DNA of 34,512 nucleotides from an uncultured bacterium (GTDB lineage Bacteria > Oederibacteriota > PGYV01 > Palsa-1178): assembly GCA_937889595.1 (NCBI GenBank), contig CALAOR010000033.1:1-34512 (forward strand). Direction: 5' to 3'. Each line of letters begins with the position of its first letter. The stretch's first letter is position 1. The notes beneath the pieces are model-generated. The model did not search any database. It worked only from the letters and a program-made list of their open reading frames with translations, and had not been told where the DNA came from. Positions 13,479 to 27,890 of the stretch are shown here, piece after piece. A program made the translations under genes and the position numbers.

Positions 13479-13892
13479 TTATTCTTTTGGCAGAAACAAC
13501 TCCGCAAATTTGCAGATTTCTTCCGCGTCTGCGGCAAGTTTTTGAGCGTCCTTTTGGCCCAAAACCCTCTCTTCATAGGATGCCATATTTTTTGCCTTAA
13601 GTATCCTTATGAGTTTCGGCCTTACTTTTTCAAGTTCCTGCCTCTTTATGCCTTCAATAGACATAAACAGGCCTATAGATTCCTCGTGGTTTGTTCCTGC
13701 GTGCCTTTTTTGCAGGTAATAGACACAGACCGCGTCTATTGCCGCTACCGCTGAAAAGACAGCGTTTAAAGACGCAGCGGCGTAAATCGAGTCATCCATG
13801 CATCTTTTGGCCGATTTAAGCAGTTCCCTGGACCGCCTGAGGTAATTCACATACAGGTATTTTTCCACATCCCTTGTTTTTATGTCTTTCAT
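13479..13892 (-). CDS. HEPN-domain protein (partner of the nucleotidyltransferase)
   Basis: A 137-residue all-helical protein. The N-terminal helix YVNYLRRSRELLKSAKRCM, the helix YAAASLNAVFSAVAAIDAVCVYYL, and the end (SYEERVLGQKDAQKLAADAEEICKFA) match the HEPN pattern. R63-x5-H69 (in KRHAGTNH) fits the loose RX4-6H motif of HEPN RNases, but its location is earlier than in classic toxins and the RX4HXY form of HepT is absent. The gene starts 20 bases after the stop codon of an HTH-nucleotidyltransferase gene. HEPN/MNT pairs are usually toxin-antitoxin or defence modules; here the toxin activity is uncertain. Confidence 0.75.
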   Translation of the reverse strand: MKDIKTRDVEKYLYVNYLRRSRELLKSAKRCMDDSIYAAASLNAVFSAVAAIDAVCVYYLQKRHAGTNHEESIGLFMSIEGIKRQELEKVRPKLIRILKAKNMASYEERVLGQKDAQKLAADAEEICKFAELFLPKE

Positions 13893-13912
13893 CTTTCCCC
13901 CTTAGATTTTAC

Positions 13913-14503
13913 CTATATGAGCTTTATACCTTCTTTTGCTATGTTCTTCATTACAGCCAGTTTTTTCTTCCTTTGAAATTCCGCTTTGGTATTAACGTAG
14001 CAGGCCAGGTGCCTGCCGAAGAGGCCATATATGGTGTCTCTTAATTTGTCATCATGTTTTTCAAAATTCTTTTTATCCTCCATGGAATCTACAACGACTA
14101 AAAGATCGATGTCGCTGTTCTCGTCATAATCGCCCCTTGCCATTGAACCGAATAGCTTGGCCTCTAAAACCATGCGTTTTTGGAGATCTTCCTTTATGAC
14201 TTCTTTCATCTTATCAAGGGCCACAGGGGCTTTAAACAGCGTTTTATATAATGGAGCCAGTGCTTTATACGCGTAACCGTCCTCATTTAAGGACCATTCT
14301 ATGCTGTTGCCTACATCGCGGCTTTTAACAAGCCCCGCGTCCTCATACGAGCGCAAAACCCTGTGCGCCGTCATGAGAGGTACCCGGGCCAGCTGCGACA
14401 CCCCTTTTGCAGTATCCTTAAAACCGGGAAATAATACAAATTTAAGCACGCTCTGTTTCGCCCTGGAGTTAAGCAGATCCGCGGGCCTTAACGACATGTC
14501 CAT
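13913..14503 (-). CDS. winged-helix + MNT-type nucleotidyltransferase protein
   Basis: A 196-residue fusion. Residues about 14-75 form a winged helix (SQLARVPLMTAHRVLRSYEDAGLV). The nucleotidyltransferase begins with AKLFGSMARGDYDENSDIDLLVV, an exact GSX10DXD motif (G119, S120, D131, D133). A third catalytic aspartate is not evident: the matching strand reads HLACYV. MNT proteins in HEPN pairs act as antitoxins, in some cases by adenylylating the toxin. Fusion to a DNA-binding domain suggests that this protein also represses its own operon. GAGGTG lies 4 bases before the ATG. Two tandem 16-base palindromes span the promoter. It is first in the operon, with the HEPN gene second, the usual antitoxin-first order. 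Confidence 0.85.
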   Translation of the reverse strand: MDMSLRPADLLNSRAKQSVLKFVLFPGFKDTAKGVSQLARVPLMTAHRVLRSYEDAGLVKSRDVGNSIEWSLNEDGYAYKALAPLYKTLFKAPVALDKMKEVIKEDLQKRMVLEAKLFGSMARGDYDENSDIDLLVVVDSMEDKKNFEKHDDKLRDTIYGLFGRHLACYVNTKAEFQRKKKLAVMKNIAKEGIKLI

Positions 14504-14722: not shown

Positions 14723-15514
14723 CTACCGCAGCTGCCTTTGCGCGAACTTTAATACCTTTTCCACGGTCATGGGATCTGCGTCTATTATATCCACGGAACT
14801 CCACGCGTCCATCATGTATTTTTGTATATAGGCGTACGGCAGATAACCATATCCTTTGTCTCCCCACTGCGCAGTCCAGGAATTCTTGAACTTGATAAGT
14901 TTTTTGGCGTCGTCATACCCAACCGCACATATGGCATGCCCGCCCAGGGTCTGCTCGCCTGTCTTTGGCATGGGTACTTTCCCTGTTTTCGTATCCATCA
15001 TACCCTGGTACACTTCCACGCCGATAACGCAAGGCCCTTTTTGCGCGATTGACATGCGCAGTTCGTTGAGGTCAAGTATCCTTGCGTATGAAAGTTCCCT
15101 GAACTTTGTAGCATCGGCTTTTGCGCCGGATTTCGGTTTGTCATCCTGATGTGGCTGATACGGCCAGAAGCTTTCCATGCATGTGCCGAGGACTTTGAGC
15201 ACTTTCATGGCAAACCTGATGTTTGTGCCTTCGGAGTTTGGGTAGCCGTCGATCTTTTTGCATTCCGAATACAGAAATCTCGGGGATAATTCCATATATT
15301 TTTTCCAGTCAACCTGTTCCTGATACTCTTTCATGCCCGCCACGGTTGAAAAAGCCACGCAGGTTCCTTCATCGCCCTGGTCGCGCACAGGCGTCATGGC
15401 GGATGCGTAGTCTACTTTCGCCGGAATTTTACTTACAGGCAGATAAGCGCGCATAAGGTAGTCACGGTTATCTTTTTTGTCCCGTTTACATCCAAGCTTG
15501 TATTTTTTGTTCAT
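14723..15514 (-). CDS. papain-like (C1 family) cysteine peptidase
   Basis: A 263-residue peptidase with the complete catalytic set: oxyanion-hole Q46 and nucleophile C52 in RDQGDEGTCVAFS, H193 in LGGHAICAVGYDD, and N211 in FKNSWTAQWGDKGYGYLPY. The N-terminus (KDNRDYLMRAYLP) replaces a propeptide and matches the short form found in bacterial and viral C1 peptidases. There is no signal peptide or membrane segment, so it is either cytosolic or exported by another route. An SD-like GAGGGGTGG precedes the ATG, and a candidate promoter lies about 85 bases upstream. It stands alone, between a repeat and the barrel operon. Its target is unknown. Confidence 0.88.
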   Translation of the reverse strand: MNKKYKLGCKRDKKDNRDYLMRAYLPVSKIPAKVDYASAMTPVRDQGDEGTCVAFSTVAGMKEYQEQVDWKKYMELSPRFLYSECKKIDGYPNSEGTNIRFAMKVLKVLGTCMESFWPYQPHQDDKPKSGAKADATKFRELSYARILDLNELRMSIAQKGPCVIGVEVYQGMMDTKTGKVPMPKTGEQTLGGHAICAVGYDDAKKLIKFKNSWTAQWGDKGYGYLPYAYIQKYMMDAWSSVDIIDADPMTVEKVLKFAQRQLR

Positions 15515-15626: not shown

Positions 15627-15653
15627 GATGAAAAACATGGAATATTATATGAC

Positions 15654-18164
15654 TTACTTGGATTCTTCCTTGACTTCAACCTGCGTCGCCGCAGATACCG
15701 GCGTATTTACTGCTTCTTCTCTTTGATTCATGACCGGAGTTTCAGTCGCAGCCGGTGTGGCCGCAATGGTTGAAACAGGCAACGGCGTTGGCGTTACTGC
15801 GGCCTCCTGTGTGTTTTTTGCGGAGCCATAGAACATTACTCCCATGCCTAAACGGTATAAAAACTCGTTTTGCATAGAAGGGATGTTGAATGGGTTGGAA
15901 CCGTGATACCCGACTCTATTATGCACATAATATGAAGCGCCAATGTCAAGAACGAACCAGTTCATAAGCATTCTTATCCCGGCTTCGCCGCCGCCGGTCA
16001 GCGACACAAATATTTCGGTCTCATTAGGGGGGGTATTCTGTTGATACATATTGAAATTTGCGCCGATAACAGGCCCCAGGTAAAATCTTGACGGTGACCT
16101 CCCGCCGGGATAGAAATCAAAAGCAATATCCAACCCCGCCAAATACCGTTTAATTCCGGTCTCGTTGCCATTCTCGTACTTCCCGCCCAGGATAAAACTC
16201 ATGCCAAAAATACCATCATCGCCGAACCCAAGCCTCAGGCCTGATCCCTTCGTGCCATCCCGGACAAATCTTACGATGTCAGCCAGATCGACCTCAAGAA
16301 ATGTGCCGTCAGTTGTGCCGCTATTTTTGGGATCATTCCGGACCCCGTCTTTTTTATTTTCCGGCGCATTCCCATCCTGTTTTTCTCCGGGCCGCACAGG
16401 TTCAGCGCCGTAAAACATAACGCCCAGGCTGACATGCGGCATAATGGCACCCGTGGGAAGTTTCGGAATATACTGATACGGATTGGTCTCCACCATAACG
16501 CTGCTGTTGCCGGTCATATTATGGTCTATCCTATAGTCAACCCCTATATCAAGTACAAACGCGTTCATAAGGAACCTGACCCCCGCTTCGCCTCCTGCAG
16601 TCAGATCAAAACCCAATTCTTTATCGCCGCCAGCCGGTTTATATGAAAAATACCGTGCTCCTATCAAAGGCCCTATATAAATACCTGACGGTGAGCGGCC
16701 AAGGGGATAAAAATCAAATGCCACATTCAGCGAACCGTCAAAAATTTCGCTGAATGCGGGATTATTTGCTTCAGTCAGTATTTCCGGGATAAAGCTCATG
16801 CCGAAAATACCGTCATCGCCAAAACCAAACCTGCCGCCGCCGCCCATCCAGCTGTTTGAAACTGCCCTGTAAATACTGATACCGTCTGCTTCAATAAAAA
16901 ACCCAGCAGTTGTCCCTTTTTCATCCGCACCGGTTTTGGGATTTTCCGGGTTCCGTTCATTTTTAAGTTCTTCAAGTATTTCCTTTCTAAGCCTTGCTTT
17001 CATTTCTTCTTCGGTTTCTTTTTTGACTTCTTCTTTCGTAACATCTGGCCCGGGGGTATATGCCGCCACTGCGTTCCGGGATATGGCCGTATTTTCAGCT
17101 GCGGCCGGCGTAAGCCCCATATTTGTGACTGTGGGTGTTTGAATATAATTTGCTTCATTACTATGCGTCACAGCAGGAATTTCAGCCGTTGTTTCCGCTG
17201 GTGTCACGGTTAAAACCGGTAACGGAGTTGATGTTGGCCAGGGTGTGGGTGCGGGCCGCGGCGTATCGGTTGATTCGGGCGTGTCGGTTGGTTCGGACGT
17301 ATCAGCCCGCGCCGGGGTGTTTACAGTCCTGATGTATTCTGTTTTATTGCCGGCGCCGCGGTTTTTTACGGGTGCGGGTTCCGCGGGTTCATTATACATA
17401 CCTGTCCTGCCGTCAAGATAATACGTCACACCGGTCCCGATAGTAACAATACCCGACGTTTCTATACTGAGCGTTATATCAAGGCTGCTTCTGTAGGACA
17501 GGAAATAACTGGCTCCTCCAAGCAGCGCAAAATCAAAGGTCCCGCCCCCGGCCGAATAGTTTAACTGCGCGCCAAAATTAATGTCCCATTTTGGATCGAT
17601 CAAATAATGGTACCTCCCGCTCAGGCCGAAAGAAACACCACTGCCGGAAATGGAACAATTTATAGCGCTGTCCAGCACATTCTGCAAAAAATACGACCCT
17701 ATGGTTCCGTTTAATGACGGAGTGCCGGCAAAATCCCCGCTTAACGCCAAAGACATAAAAATATTCCTGCCGGTTTCCGCCTTGATTTCCGGCCCCCACT
17801 GCTCGATTAAAACCGCTGAATCCGCGCCTTCGGATTTCCATAACGCGGTCCTTTTTTCGCCTTCACGTATCTCCACAAATACGGCCCTGCCCGTTATTTT
17901 TGAGATTTTTTTCCAGGTATTGGCTGCTGTAACCGAGAAATCATTTTTTTTCCCCTGGTCAGCATCCATGAATTTTTCAGAGGCTTTAAGGACGAGGTTC
18001 CCCTGGTCTGACACAAACGCGTCGTCAAATAATTTTTCATTTATATAAAATCCTGTTTTTTTGAACTCCAGCGCTAGAGCCTGGTCCTTGACCGCGCCGT
18101 GCACGGTTGCGGTTAACACCAGCAATATCAAAGCGGCCCCGGTAAATATTATATTTTTTTTCAT
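15654..18164 (-). CDS. exported multi-barrel protein with duplicated domain
   Basis: An 836-residue protein of no family I know. It has a signal peptide (about 1-24), an N-terminal globular part, and a first strand-rich module (about 135-252). A proline/threonine-rich linker with TDTPESTDTPRP-type repeats (about 283-330) and a charged helix (377-405) come next. Then come two copies of one beta-barrel-like domain (417-586 and 617-780). Both copies contain GFGDDGIFGMSFI, AFDFYP-x-GRSPS, GGEAG-x-R and a final GVMFYG. The tail is again P/T-rich. I take the ATG at 18164, whose A overlaps the TGA of the gene before it (TGATG); a GTG one codon earlier is also possible. The linker suggests an extended, perhaps wall-spanning or surface part. 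It is the last gene of a four-gene operon. Confidence 0.75.
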   Translation of the reverse strand: MKKNIIFTGAALILLVLTATVHGAVKDQALALEFKKTGFYINEKLFDDAFVSDQGNLVLKASEKFMDADQGKKNDFSVTAANTWKKISKITGRAVFVEIREGEKRTALWKSEGADSAVLIEQWGPEIKAETGRNIFMSLALSGDFAGTPSLNGTIGSYFLQNVLDSAINCSISGSGVSFGLSGRYHYLIDPKWDINFGAQLNYSAGGGTFDFALLGGASYFLSYRSSLDITLSIETSGIVTIGTGVTYYLDGRTGMYNEPAEPAPVKNRGAGNKTEYIRTVNTPARADTSEPTDTPESTDTPRPAPTPWPTSTPLPVLTVTPAETTAEIPAVTHSNEANYIQTPTVTNMGLTPAAAENTAISRNAVAAYTPGPDVTKEEVKKETEEEMKARLRKEILEELKNERNPENPKTGADEKGTTAGFFIEADGISIYRAVSNSWMGGGGRFGFGDDGIFGMSFIPEILTEANNPAFSEIFDGSLNVAFDFYPLGRSPSGIYIGPLIGARYFSYKPAGGDKELGFDLTAGGEAGVRFLMNAFVLDIGVDYRIDHNMTGNSSVMVETNPYQYIPKLPTGAIMPHVSLGVMFYGAEPVRPGEKQDGNAPENKKDGVRNDPKNSGTTDGTFLEVDLADIVRFVRDGTKGSGLRLGFGDDGIFGMSFILGGKYENGNETGIKRYLAGLDIAFDFYPGGRSPSRFYLGPVIGANFNMYQQNTPPNETEIFVSLTGGGEAGIRMLMNWFVLDIGASYYVHNRVGYHGSNPFNIPSMQNEFLYRLGMGVMFYGSAKNTQEAAVTPTPLPVSTIAATPAATETPVMNQREEAVNTPVSAATQVEVKEESK

Positions 18165-19735
18165 CACATATACCTCGTGACGCCTATGTAAATGGAACCC
18201 GACGGCGCGCTGTCGCTTCCAGGGCTTACCTGTATATTCAGCATGGTATCAAGGCTGCTGCTTTTTTTACTGTCTAAGTACCATGAAATACCCCCGAGAA
18301 GTCCTCCTGAAAGAGCTGGCCCTGCGGTATTAAATGAGATAGACCCTCCATAATTTAAACTGAACGAATCGCCCATAAAATAACGCTGGATAGCGTTAAC
18401 GCCGATACTCACGCCGCTGGAAGTGTCCAGGCTTAAATTCAGCGATACGTCAATCCCTGAATCCAGAATAACCCCAAACCTCCCGCTGAGCGACGCCCTT
18501 AAACCGCTGCTCCCGCCGATAATCAGCCTGGCTCCGCCGAATCCTATGGAAAATTGGGCGGGTTTTTCGGCAAAAGTCTTTACTGTTTGTTCCTGCCGCC
18601 AGTTGTCCTGGTCCGACACCGGCATGTTTTTTAACTGTTTCAGCTTGTCTTTCAGCTGGGCCTTTGCTTCCTTATTTTTTTCCGCGGCTATAATAGCCTG
18701 TTCCACGGCTTTCTGGCCGCACTGGAAAGCCCCGGCTTTTTCAAGCGCAAGAGCATACCCGAGATACGGCAGGACCCAATCCGGATAATCCTCTATAAGC
18801 CCCCTGAAAATTAAAATGGCGGCGAAATACTTTTTTTCCACAAACATTGACAATGCCCTTGCAAGCCTGGTTTTCGCTTTTTCCGGCGGCGCCATACTGC
18901 TACTTTTCATGCTTGGCAGGCCCTGTGCATCATCCCCTGAATTGACTTTAACTTTTAAATCCCGTTTGAGCCCTTTGCGCCACACAATTATGTCCAGCTC
19001 GCCGCCAATTGGTTTGTTCTTTATGATATCTTCCAGGTCCCGGATATCCCCGATTGTTTTACCGTCTATTTTCATTATCACGTCATTCTGGGACAATTCA
19101 GTCCTTAACTTTTCCGGCCCTGGATAAACAGTAAGCACAACCACGCCGTCGCTCACCGGGCAATCCAGTTCCTTTATGAAATCCCTGTCCAAACCCGCAT
19201 AAGACAATACCCCTATATTTTTTTTCCTGCCTGTATCTGAAGCCATATTCGAAAAAAAGTCGTTGTTTCCCCGGGCTATTTTCCAGAAATTCCCGGCAAT
19301 ATCCCCGTACCCGGCAAACATAAATACCATGCCCGCATAGTAATACGGCTGTGTACCCGAAGGATCCGTCATATGCGCGCTGTCAAGATACAGCATCGCA
19401 GGTTCGTAATAACCGCCCAAAGACAGGGCATAAGCGTATTCAGACTCCAGTTTTTCTCCTGAGCCGCCTGCTATAAGCGATTTATAGCAGTCAAGCGATT
19501 CAGGTATATATCCCAGTACCAGGTAGCCCCTGGCCGCGTTGATTAATTCATCGGAAATCCAGGGTTTATCTGCTTCGGGGCCGCGGAATTTTATGTCTTT
19601 GCTTTTGTAGGCCCGGGGGTTAAACGCGGGAAGGCCGTCTTCGGCAGGCGCTGTCAAAGGCAACGCCATGGAAAAAAATACAATCAAAACGGCGGTTATT
19701 GCATTTTTTATCCCGGACGTTTTATTTTTAGCCAC
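18164..19735 (-). CDS. exported TPR-PDZ-beta-barrel protein
   Basis: A 523-residue protein with an unusual architecture. A signal peptide (about 1-31) is followed by TPR-like helices (about 60-160), a PDZ domain (about 180-265, with LRTELSQNDVIMKIDGKTIGDI as the typical PDZ core), and a second TPR-like segment (290-370). The C-terminal strand-rich module (395-523) ends in RYM. That last module resembles residues 135-252 of the protein encoded next: both have LLGG-x-S, SSLD and a closing SG-x-x-x-IG strand. The start is GTG, without a strong SD, 3 bases after the preceding stop codon, so translational coupling is likely. The PDZ and TPR parts would bind periplasmic partners while the barrel sits in the outer membrane (inference). 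Confidence 0.75.
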   Translation of the reverse strand: MAKNKTSGIKNAITAVLIVFFSMALPLTAPAEDGLPAFNPRAYKSKDIKFRGPEADKPWISDELINAARGYLVLGYIPESLDCYKSLIAGGSGEKLESEYAYALSLGGYYEPAMLYLDSAHMTDPSGTQPYYYAGMVFMFAGYGDIAGNFWKIARGNNDFFSNMASDTGRKKNIGVLSYAGLDRDFIKELDCPVSDGVVVLTVYPGPEKLRTELSQNDVIMKIDGKTIGDIRDLEDIIKNKPIGGELDIIVWRKGLKRDLKVKVNSGDDAQGLPSMKSSSMAPPEKAKTRLARALSMFVEKKYFAAILIFRGLIEDYPDWVLPYLGYALALEKAGAFQCGQKAVEQAIIAAEKNKEAKAQLKDKLKQLKNMPVSDQDNWRQEQTVKTFAEKPAQFSIGFGGARLIIGGSSGLRASLSGRFGVILDSGIDVSLNLSLDTSSGVSIGVNAIQRYFMGDSFSLNYGGSISFNTAGPALSGGLLGGISWYLDSKKSSSLDTMLNIQVSPGSDSAPSGSIYIGVTRYM

Positions 19736-19738
19736 GTT

Positions 19739-20728
19739 TTATTTTTCAGCCCCGCTTTTTTTCTTAGAATTAAAATTATAATTTTTTAGGTCATCGACAT
19801 TGCTTATTTTAAGGACCCCGTAGTTATCGGGCATGAAAACATACAATATATTCTTTTGCATCAGGATACGCGGATTTGAGGCCTTCATGAAATCTATGCA
19901 TCCGTTGCCCTCCGCATATCCTATGTACGATGCCGTAGAGTAAAAAATCCCTGCTTTCCCGCTGTATACTATGCCGGTTATGTCTTCTGAAGGATGGACA
20001 AAAAAACCTTTAACACCGTCTTTGCCGTTCGTTATTTCCACGATCATACGGCCCATCGCGATATATGTTTTTTTACCGTTCCCAGCCACGGCTGTTATGG
20101 GTTTTTTGACTGAAAAAATATGTTTATAACACAAAGCAGACCCTTTATCACCGGTTTTTACCGTGCTTCCTTTCCCTCCAAACGTATAAACATTGCTATC
20201 CCCGCTTTCATTATCGTAACCTTTTAAATACAGTATATTTCCTTCTCCCGGGAACATAGAGCAGCCGGGGACAGGCAGGCTGGCTAAAGGCTGAAAAGAC
20301 GCGGATATTATCCCATTTTTATCCGCTTCCGCTTTTTTTCCGATCTCAGCTATAAATCCAAGGTATTTATCAGTCGATATATACATTACCCCACTGTCAA
20401 GAAAAGCGAATTCCCTGTACGGAACATCCATCTTTAATACGAAATTCTTCCCGAAATTCGCGAGCATATTATTATCACGGCCAAACCACAGGTTTCCTTT
20501 TGTATCAACGGAAAATTGCGCGTTGTTTTCCGCTGCGGGTTTTAATCCGTTCCTGTCCCGGGGCGGCAAAAGCCATTCAAATATCATTTTTGTTTTTGCC
20601 GGTAATATCACGAACGTGTCCGGTACATATTTAATTTTTCCTTTATTCCCGGTATCAGCGGTAATCCCGGCCGCGGCAATGTTAAAACAAAATACCGTAA
20701 GCGCAAAAAATTTCAGGTTGTTTTTCAT
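19739..20728 (-). CDS. exported protein, beta-propeller-like
   Basis: A 329-residue exported protein with a signal peptide (about 1-24, ending AAAGITA). The rest is a succession of short strands with patterns such as AQFSVDTKGNLWFGRDN, GVMYISTDKYLGFIAEI and NILYVFMPDNYGVLKISNVDD, which look like propeller blades that end in aspartate or asparagine loops. No catalytic motif is visible. The ATG at 20728 overlaps the stop codon of the gene before it as TGATG. Residues just after the signal peptide (KIKYVPDTF) are encoded by DNA that resembles the dispersed GTGTCCGGTAC repeat arm. The function is unknown; operon context suggests an envelope assembly or sensing role. Confidence 0.65.
   Translation of the reverse strand: MKNNLKFFALTVFCFNIAAAGITADTGNKGKIKYVPDTFVILPAKTKMIFEWLLPPRDRNGLKPAAENNAQFSVDTKGNLWFGRDNNMLANFGKNFVLKMDVPYREFAFLDSGVMYISTDKYLGFIAEIGKKAEADKNGIISASFQPLASLPVPGCSMFPGEGNILYLKGYDNESGDSNVYTFGGKGSTVKTGDKGSALCYKHIFSVKKPITAVAGNGKKTYIAMGRMIVEITNGKDGVKGFFVHPSEDITGIVYSGKAGIFYSTASYIGYAEGNGCIDFMKASNPRILMQKNILYVFMPDNYGVLKISNVDDLKNYNFNSKKKSGAEK
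20615..20640. repeat. repeat-arm-like sequence inside a coding region
   Basis: CGTGTCCGGTAC plus TTTAATTTTTC, separated by three bases, match the arm of the inverted repeat at 10663-10689, where four bases separate the same two blocks. Here the stretch lies in frame in the mature N-terminus of the exported protein. Confidence 0.5.
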
Positions 20729-22050
20729 CAATAGGTACCGTCCAGATTTTTTCCTTCAAAGACAAAAGCTTTTAATCTGCCCAGGTTTTCATGTATTGTT
20801 TCATTGGCTGTTTCACTGAAAGATTTTCCACCCGTAACATCCACATTCCTTCCTATAAGGGTGGATGCCGCATCATTTGTGCTCTCCACAGCACGGTCCC
20901 CGACCTTACCGGCAAAATATGTATAAACCGCTCCGCCGGTAACAGCCACACCGCCTGTACCAGCCAGACCCTCCGGTAATAAAGCCACAACTCCCCCCGG
21001 CATTTCGCTTAACGCGCCGACCACATCGCCTTTGGCCAAGTCCTTGCCGATCGTGTAAATACTCATCAATATACCGGCTATGCTGCCTGCCGTTTCTCCC
21101 GCCTCCTCGCTAATCCCGAACTCAGCGACCAGTTTTTTCCTGCTTTCTTCGGCATAATAATCTTTCCCCGGTTCAACAGCAATACCTAACCCTTCGGAAA
21201 GGACGGCTATCAGCGCATTTGATTTTTCCTGTTTTCCGGAAGTTTCATCCTGCACGCCTTGAATTATACCGGCATCCATATTTACGAGCCTGTTTTGGTC
21301 CACAACAGAATTTAACCGTAATCGTTCCCTTTCTTCCACTGTCATATCATTATTGGTACGCAGTAATTGGGGGACAGTTCCCGATCCTATATACACCCCT
21401 CCGGTATCATTTCCAACAGGCAAATTTGGATTTGGAGTCTTGCCAGCCGCCGGGGTTGGTTCCTCATTTTTTACAGGACTTTTATTTTTGTCGTATCCCT
21501 TGTAAAAAGTGGCATTCGGTATTTCCGAGTCATCGCGTACCAGCCTCGTGTCATTGTTATTAATGTATTTCATTATTTCCCTGATGGCAAAATCATTAAA
21601 CGGCATGCCGCCCGAGGCGGCCCTCAATAAGGCATCAAGATTTGGATACCCGTTTTGCAGCGCCCTGGCCTGAAAAGCATCCCACTTTTGGCTGTTATTC
21701 TTTGCCCAGTCCTGTAATTCTGTTATCTGGTTGGGCGTGAAAAAAGCCTGCCCCGTGGTGTCACTGCCAAAATTCGCTTTTCCGCTTGATCCGCTTGACC
21801 CGCCGCCGGCGCTGGATACGGCCACACACTCATAAGGATTAGAGTTGTTCCCGCAATTACAGGTACAGTGATATGCCACCCCGTTGTAAACATCATCCCA
21901 GGATCCGCCGCAGGGAATCAACACATGTTTGGAAGTTACGCAGTTTTCAACACCAGGGGGTGATGCCGGGGGAAACGCGAGGACCGGGTGTGTATTGCCG
22001 ATGCATAAAAATGATAAAATGGCGGATATTATTATTAAAAAATTTTTCAT
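20728..22050 (-). CDS. exported protein with Cys-rich head and Gly/Ala-rich segment
   Basis: A 440-residue exported protein, first in the operon. The signal peptide covers about 1-25. A cysteine-rich head follows with six cysteines (C37, C47, C62, C64, C66, C75; note HCTCNCG), then a glycine/serine linker (81-90). Helical parts run through 106-165. A Gly/Ala-rich, mildly hydrophobic region (about 316-388: AGSIAGILMSIYTIGKDLAKG, then GGVVALLPEGLAG) recalls the pre-toxin or pore-like segments of polymorphic toxins and glycine-zipper proteins. The C-terminal 50 residues are polar with no recognised toxin motif. GGAGG precedes the ATG, and a near-consensus promoter lies upstream. I do not recognise the whole protein; a secreted structural or effector role is possible. 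Confidence 0.65.
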   Translation of the reverse strand: MKNFLIIISAILSFLCIGNTHPVLAFPPASPPGVENCVTSKHVLIPCGGSWDDVYNGVAYHCTCNCGNNSNPYECVAVSSAGGGSSGSSGKANFGSDTTGQAFFTPNQITELQDWAKNNSQKWDAFQARALQNGYPNLDALLRAASGGMPFNDFAIREIMKYINNNDTRLVRDDSEIPNATFYKGYDKNKSPVKNEEPTPAAGKTPNPNLPVGNDTGGVYIGSGTVPQLLRTNNDMTVEERERLRLNSVVDQNRLVNMDAGIIQGVQDETSGKQEKSNALIAVLSEGLGIAVEPGKDYYAEESRKKLVAEFGISEEAGETAGSIAGILMSIYTIGKDLAKGDVVGALSEMPGGVVALLPEGLAGTGGVAVTGGAVYTYFAGKVGDRAVESTNDAASTLIGRNVDVTGGKSFSETANETIHENLGRLKAFVFEGKNLDGTY

Positions 22051-22084
22051 TGAATGCCCTCCAAATATATCTCATTCTTATATA

Positions 22085-22117
22085 TGCGAATTATCGCATT
22101 GTTATATATTTTGTCAA
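22085..22117 (-). promoter_or_regulatory. strong promoter of the four-gene exported-protein operon
   Basis: On the minus strand a perfect TTGACA (22112-22117) and GATAAT (22090-22095, 5 of 6) are 16 bases apart. A small inverted repeat, TGCGA-ATTA-TCGCA (22085-22098), covers the -10 box and could be an operator. Confidence 0.7.
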
Positions 22118-22207
22118 TATTTATTTTTACAAATAATTATTAACCGTTGAAAACAAAGGAAAATAAAGGAAAAATGTGATGGCCTTATCTTACTCTAAAA
22201 CATATTT

Positions 22208-22257
22208 GATGCGGTCGAAAAACCCTATTAAACCATGAAATTCTTTATCGTGTCCGG
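22208..22257. repeat. 50-base dispersed repeat, copy B
   Basis: This copy matches 10622-10671 at 45 of 50 positions. It lies in the 242-base stretch between the four-gene operon promoter and the first barrel paralogue. Unlike copy A, the inverted-repeat arm stops after GTGTCCGG. Confidence 0.85.
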
Positions 22258-22292
22258 CATTATCATTTAAACCTTAAACCCCGGTGTTTGCA

Positions 22293-23108
22293 TTAAAATC
22301 CCAGGCTGATCCCTATGCCTATGTTTATTCCGGAAAAATCAAAAGGCACGTCCGTATTGCTGGCGTCTTTCATGGTTTCGCCTTTATTCCCGACAGTGTA
22401 TATTACGCTGTTCAGGGAATAATCCACGTTTTCGGATTGTTTAACATTAATAATGTTTGCCAGCCTGTATCCGGCATTTACGTTAAAATCCACATTTTTA
22501 GCGATCTTTATTTCCACAGCTGCGTTTATTTCACCGCAAAAACCAAGCCCGTCATACGGCTGCACATAACTTGACGTCTGGCTCCCTGCATTTATGACAT
22601 CAACATTATTTACCACATGCGCGAACCCTACTCCACCGAACGCTCCTGCACTTAGTGAAATAGCCGTTCCCGGCAGGCCAAACCTCAAAGTTGCTCCGGC
22701 TTCCACCGGTATAAGCGATACATCCATGGATGTCTTTGTATTTAAAGGACCCGGAAGTACATGCTCGGACGTTGCCGGAAAGCAGTACAAATACCCGGCT
22801 CTGGGGCCTAACATTAAAAACGGATAAACCGCGATTTCTATATCAAAAGTGCCGATAACTCCCGCACCAAGTTTCGTGACAGCATAATCATCGTTCATTG
22901 CGTCGTTTGCCTGTTTCATACTTACCGTGGTAAAATCCACATTAAGCGTCAGCCTTAATGACTGTGAAGCCGCGTCATTCTGGGATTCATCCGCCAGCGG
23001 TATCTGCACTGCCGCCTGTCCTGATTCTCCCGGCTGCTTTGTTTCTTCCGCAATTAAGCCAAACGGAATCAGACAAATAATTAAAGCAAATACCTGTAAT
23101 TTTTTCAT
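22293..23108 (-). CDS. outer-membrane beta-barrel protein, paralogue 1
   Basis: A 271-residue exported protein with a signal peptide (about 1-20, ending LIAEE). The rest shows alternating hydrophobic strands such as AVYPFLMLGPRAGYLYCF, AISLSAGAFGGVGFAHVV and VDFNVNAGYRLANIINV, and ends in IGIGISLGF with the terminal phenylalanine expected of BAM substrates. It is similar to the next gene upstream: both end with DFSGINIG-x-GI-x-L-x-F and share NAGYR or NGGYR with AN-x-IN. The porin or adhesin role is unknown. A strong AGGAGG precedes the ATG. A TATAAT-like -10 lies at 23166-23171 without a clear -35. Confidence 0.8.
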   Translation of the reverse strand: MKKLQVFALIICLIPFGLIAEETKQPGESGQAAVQIPLADESQNDAASQSLRLTLNVDFTTVSMKQANDAMNDDYAVTKLGAGVIGTFDIEIAVYPFLMLGPRAGYLYCFPATSEHVLPGPLNTKTSMDVSLIPVEAGATLRFGLPGTAISLSAGAFGGVGFAHVVNNVDVINAGSQTSSYVQPYDGLGFCGEINAAVEIKIAKNVDFNVNAGYRLANIINVKQSENVDYSLNSVIYTVGNKGETMKDASNTDVPFDFSGINIGIGISLGF

Positions 23109-23214
23109 ATTTCCTCCTGCGGGGTAAAATTTGTTGCCCTATTGAATATACTCCGCCGGAATCGCATTATAAAGAATATTATTCCGCTTTTAATCGACTT
23201 TTTTCCAAGTCAAA

Positions 23215-23250
23215 GCAAAAAGCCCCGCGCTTGCGCGCGGGGCTTTTTGC
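23215..23250. terminator. bidirectional-looking GC-rich terminator
   Basis: A perfect 16-base stem (23215-23230 with 23235-23250) with a TTGC loop and A-run/T-run flanks built into the stem. It lies 22 bases after the stop codon of barrel paralogue 2 on the minus strand and would separate its transcript from paralogue 1. Confidence 0.85.
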
Positions 23251-23272
23251 TTTTAATCAGGACAGCAAAACA

Positions 23273-24043
23273 TCAGAACCTTAGATCAATCCCCACTCCG
23301 ATGTTTATGCCGGAGAAATCAACCGCAACAGGCTTGCCATTGTTGTCGTTGAACGGGTCATTGGTCGGTATTGTGATAAGTCCAAAACCGGGCACATTAC
23401 CGCTTACTTTATTGATGTTCTTGTAATTTATCATGTTCGCGTACCTGTAGCCGCCATTGATGCTTACGGCCAAAAACGGCAGCAGCTTCACTTCAACCGC
23501 CGCTGTAAAATCGGCCACGAAACCGTTTGTCCCGTAAAGAGCAAGCAAAGGCTCGCTTCCGTTATACTTCGTGGTCTGTGAGCAGTATGCCAGGCCCCAG
23601 CCCGCGTAACCGCCCAGATTAATGGCTATCGCTGAATCTTCCATTGGAAAATATAGATTGATGCCGGCCAGAACTGGAATAAGATAATTTGCAATTGAGG
23701 TGTCCGTAGACATCCATGTCAAGGGCGGTATATTAACCAGCCTGAAACCGGAATAAGTGGAAGGAAATATATATTGCAATCCCGACCTTACCCCGATCAG
23801 TATATTTTTGTCCAGATTGACGCTCAAATCCACGTTCCCAAACACTCCGTTCCCATACCCCTTCCAGTTGGCCGAAGACGTCGTGGTATAAGCCGCAGCA
23901 TCGGTTTTAACCTTTTCCCAATAACTGTTCAGGCTGGCAAGCGAAGAATAGGAATACCCTCCGCTTACACTGATGTCAACTGCTGCAAAAGACGGTACAA
24001 CAACGGATAAAACCATTACGGCTAAAAATAGTAATTTGCGCAT
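23273..24043 (-). CDS. outer-membrane beta-barrel protein, paralogue 2
   Basis: A 256-residue exported protein. The signal peptide (about 1-20, ending PSFAA) is followed by strand-rich sequence (VDISVSGGYSYSSL, GNVDLSVNLDKNILIGVRSGLQY, AIAINLGGYAGWGLAYC) and the C-terminal FSGINIGVGIDLRF, with a terminal phenylalanine. It is a tandem paralogue of the gene at 22293-23108, although a terminator between them implies separate transcripts. The GGGAGG site precedes the ATG. Likely an outer-membrane protein of about 8-10 strands; the ligand is unknown. Confidence 0.8.
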   Translation of the reverse strand: MRKLLFLAVMVLSVVVPSFAAVDISVSGGYSYSSLASLNSYWEKVKTDAAAYTTTSSANWKGYGNGVFGNVDLSVNLDKNILIGVRSGLQYIFPSTYSGFRLVNIPPLTWMSTDTSIANYLIPVLAGINLYFPMEDSAIAINLGGYAGWGLAYCSQTTKYNGSEPLLALYGTNGFVADFTAAVEVKLLPFLAVSINGGYRYANMINYKNINKVSGNVPGFGLITIPTNDPFNDNNGKPVAVDFSGINIGVGIDLRF

Positions 24044-26705: not shown

Positions 26706-27038
26706 TTATTTTATAACTTCGACATCAATTGTGCTGACGGAAATTGTTACAATTCCAAGCACACAGTCTATCAAATAATCGATAAAACTCGAATATGTCT
26801 TAACCCTGACAATTTCTTTGGGTCTTATCATGTCTCCGGTGGAATTGTCGGTTAAAGGCACCAGACCAAAAAGAATGTAAAATACCATTTTAGACCTGAC
26901 TGTTTTGGCTTTCGGTGCCCCATTGTTATCAGGCGCCAGATAGGCATAACCATTTTTGCATTCAATCTTTATTGTAGAACATGAAACCATGACAAAAGCA
27001 AAACAAATAATGACCAGAACCGCTACAAACTTTTTCAT
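26706..27038 (-). CDS. small exported lipoprotein (Bor-like in outline)
   Basis: A 110-residue lipoprotein precursor: MKKFVAVLVIICFAFVMVSC with lipobox MVS-C20. The mature part has VFYILFGLVPLTDNSTGD in the middle and T-x-x-x-FIDYLIDCVLGIVTIS near the end. This outline (a GLVPL strand, then a hydrophobic C-terminal segment) recalls small lipoproteins such as Bor, but similarity is weak and I do not assign it. GGGGGT precedes the ATG. It lies 27 bases downstream of the TPR-barrel gene stop and may be its operon partner. Confidence 0.65.
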   Translation of the reverse strand: MKKFVAVLVIICFAFVMVSCSTIKIECKNGYAYLAPDNNGAPKAKTVRSKMVFYILFGLVPLTDNSTGDMIRPKEIVRVKTYSSFIDYLIDCVLGIVTISVSTIDVEVIK

Positions 27039-27065
27039 GCGAAACCCCCTGTTGTTTTTTTTATT

Positions 27066-27890
27066 TTAAAAAGCGTACCCGACATTTGTCCCAAGCGACG
27101 GCAGTATGATGGCAAACTTCAGAGTGTTAGTGCTTCCGCCAAGATTGATTGACGCGCTTGATATGTATATAAGAGCCAGTATGGCGTCTATTGATAACCC
27201 GCCGTCAAATATCATTCTGTAACCAAAATGCGCCCCTGTTGTAAATACGCCAAAATTTATTTTTGATTCCGTTGTTCTCCCGTAGATATCCTGTGATTTT
27301 GATGAAACATTAATACCATAATAATAAAATTCCGGGCCGGCAAAAAGACCCGTAAGGGCTTTTCCTTCAAAAAACCAATTGAGTTTGGAACCCACCATAT
27401 AACCCACGCCGGAGATGTTTGACCCTCCGCCGCTGGCCAGCGACATCAGTGACATAGACCAGAAATAACCCACATCCACTCCAAGGCTCAGCCTGTCTAA
27501 AAAACGCCTTTCGTAATAGATGTTAAAAATCCCTGCTGTCAGGATTGAAACATTGTTGGCCAAAAGATTTGACCTGCCAAGGGCTTCTTTTTCTTTTTTA
27601 TCATTATAATCTTCCTGTGGAACTCCGCCAAGCTTGTCTGCGTAATCGTAGTAAAGCATGGCTTTTTCAATCTGCCCCAGCTGTTTATAACAATCGGCTA
27701 CAGCTGAGTAATATTTCGGATTTCTTACGTCCTTTTTTATCGCGGCATTATAATACTTTATTGCGTCTGCGTAATTCCCGGCAAGATACAATTTAGTGCC
27801 GCTATTAAAATAATCCTGACCTGTGTAACAAAATATGAAAGAAGAAAACAAAAAAAATAAAAAAAATATCGCTGTTTTTTTTAAGATCAT
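27066..27890 (-). CDS. exported TPR + beta-barrel protein
   Basis: A 274-residue protein with a phenylalanine-rich signal peptide (about 1-22), TPR repeats (about 26-92: YFNSGTKLYLAGNYADAIKYYNAAI, then YYSAVADCYKQLGQIEKAMLYYD), and a C-terminal strand-rich barrel-like part (about 110-274) ending in VGYAF. The short TPR-barrel layout echoes the longer TPR-PDZ-barrel protein at 18164-19735, although the sequences differ. The SD is weak (AGGG, 9 bases from the ATG). The lipoprotein gene follows after 27 bases. Outer-membrane location is likely; the role is unknown. Confidence 0.75.
   Translation of the reverse strand: MILKKTAIFFLFFLFSSFIFCYTGQDYFNSGTKLYLAGNYADAIKYYNAAIKKDVRNPKYYSAVADCYKQLGQIEKAMLYYDYADKLGGVPQEDYNDKKEKEALGRSNLLANNVSILTAGIFNIYYERRFLDRLSLGVDVGYFWSMSLMSLASGGGSNISGVGYMVGSKLNWFFEGKALTGLFAGPEFYYYGINVSSKSQDIYGRTTESKINFGVFTTGAHFGYRMIFDGGLSIDAILALIYISSASINLGGSTNTLKFAIILPSLGTNVGYAF

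Follow-up and report, generated by a model that had tools for sequence, protein, structure and literature searches.

A lineage-restricted four-gene envelope unit with predicted multi-barrel and TPR/PDZ-barrel proteins in the uncultured phylum FCPU426

Bacterial envelope machines with outer-membrane barrels include the T9SS (PorE, PorP/SprF), an assembly that also contains a propeller and TPR domains, and the outer-membrane gliding module Glt of Myxococcus (GltA/B/H, GltC, GltK), whose gene cluster encodes barrels paralogous to one another alongside a lipoprotein and a TPR protein. In barrels of eight strands, such as those of OmpA, OmpX and NspA, both termini face the periplasm and an open channel is normally absent, and PDZ domains of the HtrA-type bind the C-termini of proteins. 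Multi-barrel outer-membrane proteins were reportedly a subject of Solan et al. in 2021 (cited in PMC11494523), and two copies of OmpX, an 8-stranded barrel, engineered in tandem are reported to form a pore (Arnold et al. 2007, cited in PMC4827864). In GfcD, a multi-barrel outer-membrane protein, the barrels consist of 12 and 13 strands (PMC11494523), and chains with 'two or even three' pore domains are on record (PMC4827864). Multi-barrel outer-membrane proteins are already known; the combination of four proteins encoded by the cassette investigated in this study was not found as part of a known system in searches of Pfam, NCBIfam, PDB and PADLOC.

The window, by which we denote the whole analyzed stretch of 34,512 nucleotides, comprises bases 1-34512 of contig C33 in a genome of 3.4 Mb. 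It contains four co-oriented open reading frames on the minus strand, the strand of all cassette features described below, which extend from 22050 to 15654 and encode the proteins P1 (20728..22050, 440 residues), P2 (19739..20731, about 330 residues), P3 (18164..19735, 523 residues) and P4 (15654..18167, 837 residues). The genes are tightly joined, with a TGATG junction between P1 and P2 (overlap 1), a gap of 3 bases and a GTG start between P2 and P3, and a TGATG overlap between P3 and P4. They are preceded by a promoter TTGACA-16-GATAAT (22090..22117), located 40 bases before P1, whose 11/12 match is the top-scoring of a region where 9/12 matches are at chance level, and a similar TTGA...G[AG]TAAT element, read by eye, is found 5' of P1 in all five genomes that carry the genes. 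With reading frames, junctions and promoter all in place, the original prediction of a four-gene operon is borne out and, judged from the sequence, the genes form one transcription unit. All four N-termini resemble signal peptides when inspected by eye, in line with the claim that each of the proteins is exported. Evidence that the genes are real comes from their orthologues, which five genomes carry in an identical order, and from the purifying selection acting on them (dN/dS 0.12-0.25 within family f3).

These five genomes (G000, G003, G005, G010 and G013) represent three genera and two families (f1 and f3) of a single order of the uncultured phylum FCPU426. Across 45 genomes of the phylum, the cassette is distributed in an all-or-none manner and is absent from 40. 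Profile searches of the same 45 genomes detected P2 and full-length P4 in the five carriers only, whereas P1 is confined to them among 289 searched genomes and full-length P3 among 338, with the remaining P3 matches limited to an isolated TPR or PDZ-like segment. In a naive estimate that ignores the kinship of the genomes, the probability that P1 to P4 would co-occur in this way by chance is negligible. The prediction of a dedicated envelope unit of unfamiliar kind had been exposed to refutation by scattered genes or a recognized system; since the gene order is conserved in relatives and no library recognizes a system, it has withstood this trial, and we conclude that the cassette is a real, lineage-restricted and undescribed envelope unit.

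The accessory nature of the unit is illustrated in a sister species (G001), whose flanking genes are collinear with the window. Homology extends up to 22287 and is found again from 15633, and the intervening 6,653 bp (15634..22286) are represented by 128 bp in the sister species, which implies that the unit and its promoter were gained or lost as a whole. The segment is not bracketed by repeats of at least 14 nt, no integrase or recombinase was seen at it, and its composition is not atypical (GC 0.466 vs 0.452), resembling the rest of the window. A plasmid origin was rejected since P2 has no matches in plasmids, as was a viral origin since P3 has none in viral contigs, and a role in anti-phage defence was dismissed in light of the absence of PADLOC matches for any of the four proteins. 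The neighbors of the operon differ among genera, with other genes flanking it in G003 and in f3. In the window, a HEPN and MNT nucleotidyltransferase pair (13479-14503), toxin-antitoxin-like and with PADLOC candidate matches, is missing at the same place in the sister species. Two adjoining exported barrel-like genes (22293-24043) both match one gene located at this site in the sister species (54% and 30%), which suggests a tandem duplication, and at 26706-27890 a lambda Bor-like protein adjoins a TPR protein. A papain-type (C1) peptidase (14723-15514), which carries no obvious signal peptide, is conserved across much of the order; because this conservation is independent of the operon, we have rejected the downstream gene as its partner.

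P3 is the only protein of the cassette that matches known families and is organized as TPR, PDZ and TPR regions followed by a C-terminal barrel. Its TPR-like region 1 (19241..19573, approximate limits) is conserved in all five orthologues and shows a profile match to the TPR protein YrrB (3e-5). The HtrA-like PDZ domain (residues 195-264, 18944..19153; PDZ_2 8.7e-8) exceeds the curated cut-off with 32.8 bits vs 27. A match of residues 173-272 to a DegP/HtrA model (3e-11) covers the PDZ stretch only and lies far below the family cut-off, and in contrast to HtrA/DegP proteases, P3 contains no trypsin-like protease domain and instead has its PDZ joined to TPRs and a barrel. Since the domain is gapped out of the alignment in the three orthologues of the second family, f3, we regard it as accessory. 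The barrel (residues 395-523, 18167..18553), which ends on ...TRY(M/F) and has a beta-moment with a z of 3.7, is homologous to barrel A of P4 (tblastn 8.8e-7; hhalign 94%, 9e-8). Searches of PDB sequences with P3 returned TPR proteins only. The initially claimed union of TPR and PDZ domains with a barrel in a single chain holds for P3.

In P4, an alpha/beta N-terminal domain (residues 30-121, 17805..18080) is followed by barrel A (residues 135-251, 17415..17765), a Thr/Pro-rich linker, and the barrels B1 (residues 421-590, 16398..16907) and B2 (residues 618-785, 15813..16316). The N-terminal domain is the only part modelled confidently (pLDDT 66-82), and the three barrel regions, each of eight antiparallel strands, have a pLDDT of about 40-60 in a model based on an alignment of three sequences. 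The model of barrel A aligns with a designed 8-stranded transmembrane barrel at a TM score of 0.89 and with OmpA at 0.66 (both normalized by target). Barrel A is beta-amphipathic, as is the barrel of P3, and the beta-amphipathicity of B2 is not significant (z 1.1). No sequence family in Pfam matches barrel A, and searches of PDB sequences with P4 yielded only a weak match to NspA. The model predicts a protein with three 8-stranded, OmpA-type outer-membrane barrels in one chain; the barrels originally suggested for this protein are retained as predictions, but their predicted number is three instead of two. In the presence of several predicted barrels per chain P4 resembles known multi-barrel proteins, although its three 8-stranded barrels are of two kinds, A and B, unrelated by profile comparison, and contrast with the 12 and 13 strands of GfcD. 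Unlike in proteins of the OmpA/OmpX/NspA-type, the barrel is repeated within the P4 chain and fused to TPR and PDZ regions in P3. B2 is a tandem copy of B1 (hhalign 3e-34; 48% identity), from which it is separated by a spacer of ~28 residues. The B barrel is single in f3 and double in f1, and since B1 of G000 groups with B1 of G003 in a tree (97/97), its duplication probably predates the split between the two.

The two remaining proteins are less defined. P1 consists of a signal peptide, a Cys-rich N-terminus and a helical remainder, and its AF2 model has a pLDDT of only 32. Four cysteines align in all five orthologues. The proposed Gly-zipper was not upheld, since the Gly-rich stretch is not conserved among them. 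No Pfam or NCBIfam family matches P1. The exported P2 is well conserved among orthologues and appears beta-rich by eye; its assignment as a propeller is unproven, with no match to a propeller family, no internal repeat detected by profile and a weak signal in a leave-one-out blade test. The likeness to the T9SS resides in TPR and barrel parts, and none of the four operon proteins, to which this search was directed, matches a T9SS family in Pfam or NCBIfam. The likeness to the Glt module is similarly one of parts, with a single match of the Thr/Pro linker of P4 to GltJ (E 0.006), which was dismissed as sub-threshold together with a match to DUF3575.

We tentatively favor, at slightly less than an even chance, a role of the cassette as an outer-membrane-anchored complex for the anchoring or surface display of proteins. 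In such a complex, the C-terminal 8-stranded barrel would place P3 in the outer membrane and keep its TPR(-PDZ)-TPR scaffold underneath in the periplasm. P4 would act as hub, with several OmpA-type barrels on flexible periplasmic linkers and possibly with barrel A, the paralogue of the P3 barrel, packed against P3. Adaptor roles would fall to P2 and to the N-terminal domain of P4, and P1, which is Cys-rich and the most divergent across families, would be the displayed or client part. This divergence (23-26% identity between families vs 33-38% for P2, P3 and P4) may be a weak sign of surface exposure. We infer membrane insertion, topology, complex formation and a display role for the products of the four genes. 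An outer membrane able to insert barrels exists, as the genome encodes Omp85-type insertases, and the normally closed nature of 8-stranded barrels favors anchoring or display over a secretion pore.

The operons of f3 have a fifth gene, likewise overlapping, whose product is a lipoprotein by its N-terminus (P5; L046:12328-12903, L047:7554-8132, L048:7868-8443) and would be part of the complex; the absence of this gene from the f1 operons was counted against the display model. The operon copy has no Pfam match. Matches to its domain occur in 21 of the 45 genomes of the phylum, frequently within open frames 500-3,600 codons long and in places several times per large frame, a recurrence that was counted for the display model. 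A mini-cluster on another contig of the genome that contains the window (L049:9899-12629, C73 of G000) resembles the operon combination in small, with overlapping genes for a lipoprotein with TPRs, a barrel of the B-type and a P5-like protein, and was also counted for the display model.

The best rival to this display role, although in our view improbable, is a transport or secretion pore, where the tandem of B1 and B2 would form a single channel of 16 strands and P3 would recruit a client, for example P1, for export. It would be in accord with the adjacency of the two 8-stranded copies, with the engineered OmpX tandem as analogous precedent and with the binding of protein C-termini by HtrA-type PDZ domains. 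Since the same operon in f3 contains a single B barrel, such a pore cannot be its basic function, and the length of the spacer between B1 and B2 and the absence of an energy source in the operon are further arguments against it. The secretion device envisaged in the original prediction is not supported: the predicted barrels are all 8-stranded, a size that is normally closed, and the operon encodes neither an ATPase nor a POTRA, a secretin or another protein known from secretion systems.

Less probable still is that a lineage-specific complex in the outer membrane takes up or senses a specific substrate, which P2 would bind in the periplasm. This would fit the patchy, accessory distribution and the export and conservation of P2, but is at odds with variable flanks among genera and with the lack, in the operon or conserved beside it, of any gene linked to a substrate or encoding an ABC transporter or a TonB-dependent receptor. 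The proximity of the P3 PDZ to DegP/HtrA and its combination of TPR and barrel in one chain could also reflect a module for envelope quality control or stress, in which P3 would be chaperone-like for outer-membrane proteins, with P4 and P1 as partners. We consider this the unlikeliest of the readings, since the protease domain is absent, three of the five genomes lack the PDZ, and the unit is dispensable, as illustrated by the sister species and the 40 phylum genomes without it.

The cassette provides a defined and testable set of four genes from a phylum that is still uncultured, and it illustrates how synteny and an empty site can reveal an envelope complex whose proteins lack known families. 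The duplication of barrels is a proposed step in the evolution of outer-membrane proteins that has so far been mimicked by engineering, and the single and doubled B barrels provide a natural before/after pair for this process. It is conceivable, although doubtful, that FCPU426 bacteria contain an undescribed outer-membrane apparatus in which several OmpA-type barrels, partly within one chain, and a TPR/PDZ scaffold form a surface platform, and that the tandem duplication of its 8-stranded B barrel may show a step from 8 to 16 strands.
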